Positions 29,822 to 33,112 of a stretch of 37,843 nucleotides of DNA are shown here, one piece after another. Numbering within the stretch: position 1 is the stretch's first letter; every line of letters begins with the position of its first letter. Source of the DNA: Bryobacteraceae bacterium (GTDB lineage: Bacteria > Acidobacteriota > Terriglobia > Bryobacterales > Bryobacteraceae); NCBI GenBank assembly GCA_013388415.1, contig JACADU010000087.1:1-37843 (forward strand), in the 5' to 3' direction. The notes below the pieces were generated by a model. The model saw only the letters and a program-made list of their open reading frames with translations. It had not been told where the DNA came from and ran no database searches. Made by a program: the position numbers and the translations under genes.

Positions 29822-32233
29822 TCAAAAGGAAAACCTCATGCCCGCCGTCGCCCACGCTCGCGGCGTGCGGAAACCGTCCTCGTAGAACTCCCGGTTCAGA
29901 ACGTTCTCCACCCTGAAAGTGAACTTGAGCGACCGCCGCTCTCCGGTGTGGACCGTGTAGTTGGCCGAGAGGTCGAGCTTTCGCGGTCCGGCGAAGAGGT
30001 ACGGGCGATTCCCGCTGCCCGTGAAGAACGATCCGCTGACGTAATCGCTCGCCGCCAGGAAATCGGCGGCGAATTGAAGCCGCCGGGTCGCCTGCTGCGT
30101 AAACTGGGCGCTGAAGGCGTGCGGAAAAACGCGGATCGACTGAAGCATGCCGCCGACAAGCGCGCTGCGGCGCTCATCCGCATTGGTCCACGTGTAGGTG
30201 GTCTGTAGCTGCGTGCGCCGGCTGGGGCGGCCTTCAAACGTCAACTCCACGCCGCGGGCGAGCCCGCCGCCCGTGTTGGCGTAGCCGCCGAACCGGCCCC
30301 ACGGATCGTTCGTTAGACCCATGTAGCCGATGACCTCCTGTAGCCGGGTGTAGAAATAGGTGGCGCCCGCGCGAACACGGTCGCCGGCGAGATACTGGTC
30401 GAATCCGAAATCGAAGCTGACCGTGCGCTCGGGGCGGAGCCCCGGATCGCCCAGCGGCGAGAATGCGCCGAAGAAGAAGGACGTGCCGATGCGTTCGTAC
30501 AGCGCCGGCGCGCGGTAGCCGTTGCCGGCGTGCGCGCGGAGCTTGCTCGACGTCTTCGGAATGAAGTAGCTCAACGAAACGTCTCCCGTCAGTGCGTTGG
30601 GCGGCGCTTCGAACGAGGCGCCTTCATAGCGCGGCGCTCCTCCCCGAAAGACGGGCTGCGAAAGCGAATAGGACTGGAACCGCCCGGTGACGTGCAATTG
30701 CAGGCGCTCGTCGAGCAGGCGGGTCTGGTTCTGGAAGAAGACCGCGTTGCTGCGCTGCGCGGCGCTCGCCGATGCGTCGACTCTTTGCAGGGGATTCGGA
30801 TTCTGGTCGCTGGAGATGTTCTCGTACCACTCGCGCTCATACTCGTAGCCGATCGCCAATAGGTTCCAGCGCACGGGGGCGAAATCGGCGCGAGCCTGGA
30901 CAGTATCGATGCGTCCGTCGTAAACGCTCGAGTTGTTGTAGGCCGGTTGAAAGCTCGTTCCCCCCGGACCGTTCCGCGTGTCGCGCCCGGTGAGCAGGTT
31001 CTGGTAGGAAACGCGATAGTTGAACCGCGGCGCGGCCTGATGTTGCCAGGCGATCATCGTCGCCGAATAGTCGCCGATCCGCCTGCCGTCAGGGTCGTAG
31101 AAGTTTGGCCCGAACGTGGCGTTGCCCCAGGAAAAGGGCTGGCCCTGGTCGCCAAGCAGCATTTGACCGTGAGGCAGGGCAATGGCCGGGATCGTCCCCG
31201 CCGGCGGAAGATTCGCCGCCGGCGCGGCTACAGGGCTCGAGTTCACTCCGATGGTGCCGAAGCCGCCGTAATACCGGCCCGAGAGGGAGGCCGCCGAGAC
31301 GGGCCGCCACTGTATGGAACCCTGCCCCGAGGAGTTGCGGACGTTTTCGACACCGTCGATTCCGCCATTGACGTTGAGGTGCGACACGCCGCCGCTGAAA
31401 TTCAGGCGGTTGTTCAGCGCCCCGCCCGCCAGGCGCGCCGCGCCGCGAGCCAAGCCAAGACCGCCGCCTTCGCCCGAAATCTCGCCGCGCAACGGGCCTC
31501 CCCCTTGATCCGTGACAATGTTGACCACGCCGGCCGTTGCGTTCGTTCCATAGACCGCGGAGCCGAGGCCGCAGAGGACTTCAATCCGCTCGGCGTCGAC
31601 CAGTTGCAGATCGCCAAGATAGGCCGTCGCATCGCCCTGCACCGCTGCGGCGTCACGCATCCGCATGCCGTCGATCAACAACCCGGTGTCCGCCGCTCGC
31701 AGCCCGCGCATCTGGATGCGCGCGAATGAGCCCGGCCCGCCAAGCTGTTGGACGCGCAACCCCGGCACGATGCGGAGCGCTTCCACAATCGAGATCTCGT
31801 TGCGCGCCTCGAAGTCGGCGCGCTCGAGCGTGTCCAGAGCCTTGCCTGCCGACGCCACGGTTTCAGGCGATGCGGTCGCTGTCACGGCGACGCGGTCCGA
31901 GCGCGGCGCCAGCCGGAGCTTCAGATCGATTTCCGTCTTCTCGCCCTCGCGCACCGCCACGCTCACCGCCTCGCTTGCCAGTTGCGCCTCAGCGGCTGAG
32001 GCTTGAATCAGGAACTCGCCGGCGGATGCGTGTTCGAATCGATAGCGGCCCTCGCCGTCGCTGAATCCGTTCGTTTGCACCCGGGTCAGCCGGTTGTAGA
32101 GCCTGACCTCGGCCTTGGGCACAGGCGACCCCGATTCGTCGAGGACCCGCCCGCTGATCACTGAGTTCGGCCGGACCGTTTGCCCAACCAGAACACTGCT
32201 CGTGATGGTGAAAATGAAAGCAAGAAATCGCAC
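29822..32233 (-). CDS. TonB-dependent receptor with N-terminal carboxypeptidase-regulatory-like domain; probable cobalamin (BtuB-type) or corrinoid receptor
   Basis: GTG start at 32233 with upstream gggagggg; plug (SIVEALRIVPGLRVQQLGGPGSFARIQMRGLRAADTGLLIDGMRM), barrel, C-terminal AWATAGMRFSF; preceded by a cobalamin riboswitch. Confidence 0.9.
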   Translation of the reverse strand: MRFLAFIFTITSSVLVGQTVRPNSVISGRVLDESGSPVPKAEVRLYNRLTRVQTNGFSDGEGRYRFEHASAGEFLIQASAAEAQLASEAVSVAVREGEKTEIDLKLRLAPRSDRVAVTATASPETVASAGKALDTLERADFEARNEISIVEALRIVPGLRVQQLGGPGSFARIQMRGLRAADTGLLIDGMRMRDAAAVQGDATAYLGDLQLVDAERIEVLCGLGSAVYGTNATAGVVNIVTDQGGGPLRGEISGEGGGLGLARGAARLAGGALNNRLNFSGGVSHLNVNGGIDGVENVRNSSGQGSIQWRPVSAASLSGRYYGGFGTIGVNSSPVAAPAANLPPAGTIPAIALPHGQMLLGDQGQPFSWGNATFGPNFYDPDGRRIGDYSATMIAWQHQAAPRFNYRVSYQNLLTGRDTRNGPGGTSFQPAYNNSSVYDGRIDTVQARADFAPVRWNLLAIGYEYEREWYENISSDQNPNPLQRVDASASAAQRSNAVFFQNQTRLLDERLQLHVTGRFQSYSLSQPVFRGGAPRYEGASFEAPPNALTGDVSLSYFIPKTSSKLRAHAGNGYRAPALYERIGTSFFFGAFSPLGDPGLRPERTVSFDFGFDQYLAGDRVRAGATYFYTRLQEVIGYMGLTNDPWGRFGGYANTGGGLARGVELTFEGRPSRRTQLQTTYTWTNADERRSALVGGMLQSIRVFPHAFSAQFTQQATRRLQFAADFLAASDYVSGSFFTGSGNRPYLFAGPRKLDLSANYTVHTGERRSLKFTFRVENVLNREFYEDGFRTPRAWATAGMRFSF

Positions 32234-32281
32234 GCGCCCCTCCCTAGAGAGCTGTTGAGATGCCCGGGCGCACTGGCCCTG

Positions 32282-32478
32282 GCACGTCAGGCAGGTCTTC
32301 GGACTTGCGAGCCTTGCTCCCCTCAGGGGAGACTCCCTACTTGCCGCGGCTTCCCAGCCCCCTGGCGGGGCCAGTGCCTTCAGTGCGGCGTTCGTTCTCG
32401 CTGACCGCTGCTGGGCAGTCCCGGATTCTCACCGGGTTCCCTCTTGGCGCGGCCCGACGTTATCAACCGGACGGGCCG
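32282..32478 (-). ncRNA. Cobalamin (AdoCbl/B12) riboswitch
   Basis: Minus-strand RNA contains AGAGGGAACCCGGTGAGAATCCGGGACTGCCC, GGCACTGG, GGGAAGCCGCGGCAAGTAGGGAGTC and B12 box AAGTCCGAAGACCTGCCTGACG, in canonical order. Confidence 0.95.
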
Positions 32479-32493
32479 ACCTGACGCAATCGG

Positions 32494-32523
32494 ATCATAC
32501 TATCTGAAACGCCGCCCGGTCAA
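32494..32523 (-). promoter_or_regulatory. Sigma-70-like promoter for the riboswitch/TonB receptor transcript
   Basis: Minus strand TTGACC-N18-TATGAT immediately upstream of the riboswitch. Confidence 0.65.
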
Positions 32524-32575
32524 TCCCAAAGGTCAAGTTGTTGCAAATCCTGGTGCGAAGCGGCATCATAAAGCC

Positions 32576-33112
32576 ATGAAAGTGTTCTCACTTTGCTTGG
32601 TGGCTCTCTGTCTGGCCGCGTCCGCGCCGGCTCAGGAGGGCGAGAAGGCGAAAGAACAGGAAGGCGCCCTCGTCAAGGGCGCAAAAGCGACAGAGGGCGC
32701 TGCGAAAGCGACCGTGAAGGGAACCAAAACCGCAGCCAAGGTGACCGCCGACGAAACCGTCGAGGCGGCTCAGGCGACTGCCAAAGGCTCGAAGAAAGTC
32801 GCCAAGGCGACCGCGGAGGGCGCCACCACCGCCGCCGGGAAAACCGCCGAAGTGACCACCGATGCCGCCAAAGCAACGGCGAAAGGAACGAAGAAGGCTG
32901 CCAAAGCCACAGCCGAGGGAACAACAGCGGCTGCGGAAAAAACGGCCGAAGTCACCACCGATGCGGCCAAAGCAACCGGAAAAGGCGCCACCACCGGCTT
33001 CAAAGCGGTCACCGGGACTGTCCAGAAAGGCGTGCAGAAGACCGGCGAAGGGATGTCGAAGGTCGGCGACAAGATGTCCGGCAAGGACGAAAAATCGAAA
33101 TCGAAGAACTAG
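32576..33112 (+). CDS. Secreted Lys/Ala/Thr-rich protein of 11-residue repeats (LEA/apolipoprotein-like)
   Basis: Signal peptide MKVFSLCLVALCLAASAPAQ followed by repeats such as ATAKGSKKVAK ATAEGATTAAG KTAEVTTDAAK. Confidence 0.82.
   Translation: MKVFSLCLVALCLAASAPAQEGEKAKEQEGALVKGAKATEGAAKATVKGTKTAAKVTADETVEAAQATAKGSKKVAKATAEGATTAAGKTAEVTTDAAKATAKGTKKAAKATAEGTTAAAEKTAEVTTDAAKATGKGATTGFKAVTGTVQKGVQKTGEGMSKVGDKMSGKDEKSKSKN
32774..32971 (+). repeat. Two tandem 99-nt (33-aa) copies within the LEA-like gene
   Basis: ATAKGSKKVAKATAEGATTAAGKTAEVTTDAAK / ATAKGTKKAAKATAEGTTAAAEKTAEVTTDAAK. Confidence 0.85.

Follow-up and report, generated by a model that had tools for sequence, protein, structure and literature searches.

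The window, the whole 37,843-nt stretch of Bryobacteraceae DNA that was analyzed, carries on its minus strand a promoter, a cobalamin riboswitch and a TonB-dependent receptor gene, with a small hairpin over the ribosome-binding site (RBS). The Rfam covariance model RF00174 matched 32499-32273 (-) with 94.6 bits (E 1.8e-22, gathering score 31.5), and the match spans model positions 1-189, is not truncated and has all conserved blocks. Far beyond chance, this segment is a cobalamin riboswitch, which bears out both the call of an initial annotation and the RF00174 check that it had proposed. The aptamer (32273-32499 (-), GCAGCGGU ... AGUCCGAAGACCUGCC) is of the E. coli btuB-like subtype, and no other RF00174 copy was found in the source assembly, an 84% complete draft. 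Its P1 helix joins GCGTCAGG (32480-32487) to CCTGACGT (32284-32291), as read from the sequence and from the P1 signal in relatives (z = -3.88). The P5 stem-loop CUGGCCC-CGCCAGG-GGGCUGG (32354-32374) is placed by the RF00174 match, has pair probabilities of about 0.86, and its stem is extended outward by GGC/GCC.

A sigma70-like promoter (32494-32523 (-), 10/12 match) lies upstream, with TTGACC at 32523-32518, an 18-nt spacer and TATGAT at 32499-32494. This was the sole sigma70-like match in 551 scanned bases, where 0.1 were expected. About a dozen relatives have TTGAC(N)-17/18-TAnnnT at the equivalent place relative to the aptamer (e.g., L009, L050, L053, L124, L153 and L157), so the promoter proposed initially holds. 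The promoter, aptamer blocks, hairpin, RBS and GTG listed in the initial annotation were each found where it had placed them. On the opposite strand, a divergent gene starts from ATGAAAGTG at 32577 (32577-33112 (+); ORF listed as 32444-33112). Its product has a signal-peptide-like start and Ala/Lys/Thr-rich near-repeats (TAKGTKKAAKATAEG...), and no Pfam match was found for it.

The aptamer occupies the 5' leader of a gene that is plausibly B12-related, with a predicted B12 specificity. The gene (29822-32233 (-)) encodes an 803-aa TonB-dependent receptor with CarboxypepD_reg, Plug and beta-barrel domains by Pfam, and begins with GTG at 32233 behind the purine run GGGAGGGG at 32244-32237. The nearest solved chains were those of BtuB, the best being PDB 1nqe (E 6e-13, plug region only). 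Against the BtuB equivalogs of NCBIfam, the receptor scored below cut-off (82 vs 599.7 bits for TIGR01779, the TonB-B12 model, and 63 vs 836 bits for NF007926). A receptor homologue is encoded at 50 of the 71 other loci with the same aptamer subtype. Together with the Pfam domains and the 1nqe match, this count supports the earlier assignment of a TonB receptor as the regulated gene, and the receptor probably imports cobamides. The source genome encodes a B12-dependent MetH (methionine synthase) domain and a corrinoid adenosyltransferase and has five B12-binding domain matches above cut-off. In the same 84% complete draft, CobS, CobD/CbiB and CbiG had no match. Because these cobamide-using functions are present and no CobS, CbiB or CbiG match was found, import probably matters, and the incomplete draft suggests a cobamide user dependent on it. 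Such dependence fits a regulated receptor. B12 riboswitches ahead of outer-membrane receptors are well known, and the window offers one more example of this arrangement. Two relatives, L018 and L061, have B12 riboswitches before genes whose N-termini resemble, by eye, BtuF-type substrate-binding proteins (RIISTAPSITETL; RIVSTAP).

Of 61 related genomes, 60 contain RF00174, as do 191 of the 200 family genomes. From the loci compared, 72 leaders of the window's aptamer subtype were extracted, and individual tests used 65, 52 non-redundant or 35 distinct sequences. The subtype is marked by AGUCCGAAGACCU, in place of which other subtypes have AGUCAGGAGACC or AGCCAGGAGACC. The named relative recovered by the receptor-sequence search was a Bryobacteraceae MAG, SKYG119 (L077), with a receptor identity of 63%. 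L077 shares the aptamer subtype and the RBS hairpin with the window, and L053, from the same family with a receptor identity of 52%, additionally shares the promoter form and the GGGGCGCGTG start context. One further relative (L076, G018:C200:17249-19460) carries two near-identical RF00174 copies about 2 kb apart. A literature search on acidobacterial cobalamin riboswitches returned nothing relevant.

The conserved element of the expression platform is a hairpin at 32252-32236 (-), which the initial annotation did not mention. It reads GCUCU-CUAGGGA-GGGGC, with a stem of 32252-32248 and 32240-32236 closing a 7-nt loop (32247-32241), and it ends two bases upstream of the GTG. The Shine-Dalgarno sequence GGGAGG (32244-32239) spans the conserved loop and the 3' arm. 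A 7-nt loop was found in the RBS hairpin of 55 of the 72 leaders, most commonly CGAGGGA, and the closest leaders, L077 and L053, have GCUCU-CGAGGGA-GGAGC or GGGGC. Around this fixed loop the stem shows compensatory changes (GC/AU/UA, CG/GC and CG/UA). Across 35 distinct sequences, 94.9% of stem cells were paired, compared with 80.9% in shuffled and at most 64.6% in slid versions, and 31 cells carried double changes vs 9.5 in shuffles. The covariation score was attained by none of 500 shuffles, a count that is not a probability, as the sequences share kinship. The stem register was picked by maximizing pairing, and the mean of 5.4 pairs compares with 3.4 when flanks were shuffled under the same maximization. 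With the Shine-Dalgarno sequence lying in its loop and 3' arm, the hairpin, once formed, would presumably impede translation initiation. The loop's conservation comes partly from selection on the Shine-Dalgarno sequence itself. Relatives from within the order (e.g., L013, L029 and L032) have leaders of another aptamer subtype, in which UUCCG-CGAGGUA-CGGA follows P1 with no evident start codon adjoining. Because these leaders place a CGAGG loop away from an evident start codon, the 7-nt CGAGG-type loop may do more than present a Shine-Dalgarno sequence.

Between P1 and the RBS hairpin lies a second hairpin, UGCC-A-GGGC-CAGUGC-GCCC-G-GGCA (32284-32261 (-)), which folds strongly (pair probability 0.98-0.99, -15.9 kcal/mol). 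The initial annotation had placed it before the RBS as one state of a switch. The hairpin is present, but what is conserved is its position alone: 50 of 52 leaders have a hairpin there, of unrelated sequence and with loops mostly of 4-5 nt, and it does not cover the Shine-Dalgarno sequence. Spacer folding was stronger than in controls across 65 leaders (mean z = -2.2). Most likely this hairpin is a spacer for which the conserved position counts and the precise sequence, with the 10-nt complement discussed below, is unimportant. By eye, UGCGCCC in the window's spacer can pair with GGGCGCG before the GTG; L053 has GGGCGCG and a spacer without the partner.

We consider it likely that the locus is an RF00174 riboswitch of the E. 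coli btuB-like subtype that has a sigma70 promoter of its own and acts as a translational OFF switch of the TonB receptor through the RBS hairpin. When cobalamin is scarce, the RBS would be available and the receptor would be made. Intracellular cobalamin, the presumed ligand, would bind the aptamer and stabilize the hairpin at 32252-32236, and with the Shine-Dalgarno sequence held in its 7-nt loop and 3' arm, translation would decrease. An RBS-sequestering hairpin 3' of the aptamer characterizes btuB-type translational riboswitches, and the covarying hairpin occupies this place; its formation is predicted to depend on ligand. L077 and L053 also argue for the OFF switch, as both retain the aptamer and the RBS hairpin. 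Against it, the window's hairpin is weak (five pairs, two of them G-U). Unconstrained folding gives it a probability of only about 0.01-0.03 and joins the RBS region to the P6 insert instead. The weight of this objection depends on how far one trusts such folds, and minimum-energy folds of a 288-nt G+C-rich RNA are unreliable and ignore ligand and tertiary contacts.

The step that would couple the aptamer to the RBS hairpin is without support, because no L5-L13 kissing loop was detected. In this general mechanism, known from P. megaterium metE, env8HyCbl and E. coli btuB (PMC10653944), L5 pairs upon ligand binding with the loop of P13, which in the window could be either the spacer or the RBS hairpin. 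The precedent, the near-constant RBS loop and the positions of both hairpins, which suit a P13, speak for it. The loops themselves do not: among 52 subtype members, one has the UCCCG consensus in L5, and the window's L5 lacks it. Across the 52 members, complementarity of L5 to the RBS loop (p 0.34) or to the spacer loop (p 0.32) was no better than in permuted pairs, in a test that misses short, non-contiguous or constant-partner contacts. On this measure, neither the RBS heptaloop nor the spacer hairpin gained support as a partner kissing L5. We regard the canonical kissing loop as possible, with the evidence leaning against it. It is a tentative and rather doubtful suggestion of ours that the btuB-type riboswitches of Bryobacteraceae are a sub-family of their own, where a different coupling has taken the place of the canonical L5-L13 kissing loop and the Shine-Dalgarno sequence resides in the near-constant C(G/U)NGGGA heptaloop of the covarying RBS hairpin.

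The P6 insert is another conceivable partner. Without ligand, aptamer segments adjoining P6 would hold either the Shine-Dalgarno region or the RBS hairpin's 5' arm in a duplex, and folding of the aptamer around its ligand would free them. In the window's minimum-energy fold the P6 insert is base-paired to the RBS region, the 3' part of the RBS gave a signal against P6 in the permutation test (z = -2.58, p 0.006), and the P6 insert of L053 holds a 7-nt complement of its own RBS loop. However, this was one of about 15 comparisons and is non-significant once corrected, and the pairing register varies among members, some of which are phylogenetically linked. The same permutation test gave no significant signal for the RBS hairpin arms vs P1-P2, P3-P4, P5 or the spacer. 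We consider P6 pairing improbable as the mechanism and treat the region as a weak lead for coupling.

Control of transcription, through an intrinsic or a Rho-dependent terminator within the leader, also appears improbable. Members of RF00174 that act on transcription exist, P. megaterium metE among them (PMC10653944), but no intrinsic terminator was found in the leader, and the sole terminator-like site in the scan is upstream of the promoter. The placement of the RBS hairpin, only two bases from the start codon in the window and likewise near it in relatives, also points away from transcriptional control.

The switch proposed in the initial annotation rested on a 10-nt complement. In the absence of ligand, GGGCCAGTGC (32279-32270 (-)) would pair with GCACTGGCCC (32377-32368 (-)) in the conserved P5 core; with ligand present, it would instead be part of the local hairpin at 32284-32261, and the gene would be controlled by the shift between the two pairings. 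The match to this conserved core element is indeed perfect, and a complement of at least 10 nt to this aptamer was reached in only 1.7% of dinucleotide-shuffled downstream segments, which is modestly beyond chance (about 0.017) for this leader alone and takes no account of the complement having been spotted in a 37.8-kb window. Its role as an anti-aptamer did not survive comparison. The core complement CAGTG, sought in the spacers of 65 leaders, occurred in the window only (1/65), and the 10-nt complement is absent from both orthologous leaders, L077 and L053 (receptor identity 52-63%), whose spacer hairpins are unrelated in sequence. Over the 65 leaders, the longest complement between the spacer and the first part of P5 averaged 3.89 nt vs 4.00 in shuffles. 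When native duplexes were compared with permuted ones in 52 non-redundant leaders, spacer-P5 pairing gave z = -0.67, whereas the P1 helix, the positive control, gave z = -3.88. With complementarity equal to shuffled and permuted controls, anti-aptamer pairing was rejected as a conserved switching element. The fold check proposed with the switch also went against it, as the GGGCCAGTGC-GCACTGGCCC pairing has a probability of about 0.001 in the unconstrained leader fold and forcing it costs about 6.6 kcal/mol over the minimum-energy structure. Finally, the hairpin 32284-32261 stops eight bases short of the RBS hairpin and leaves the Shine-Dalgarno sequence uncovered. We judge this switch very unlikely; the complement may have a role confined to this window. 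However striking, a 10-nt complement seen in a single leader does not amount to evidence for a switch when relatives lack it, and the covarying RBS hairpin is the element deserving tests, in a clade without a recognizable kissing loop.

Set against known systems, the window agrees with the cobalamin riboswitch family RF00174 in its full-length match above the gathering score, its conserved blocks and the TonB receptor downstream, and departs from it in an L5 without UCCCG and an undetected L5-L13 complement. Its receptor resembles BtuB (PDB 1nqe), the best solved match, through the plug region, and differs in an additional N-terminal CarboxypepD_reg domain and an equivalog score far under the cut-off. 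The E. coli btuB riboswitch (NC_000913.3, L166) shares the subtype motifs GCAGCGGT and CCCGAAGACCTGCC and a TonB-dependent receptor downstream, and in its leader, by eye, an apparent hairpin likewise follows P1 with a separate one near the start codon. In contrast to E. coli btuB, the window's subtype has a spacer hairpin with short, variable loops that are non-complementary to L5, and an RBS hairpin whose short 7-nt loop bears the Shine-Dalgarno sequence.
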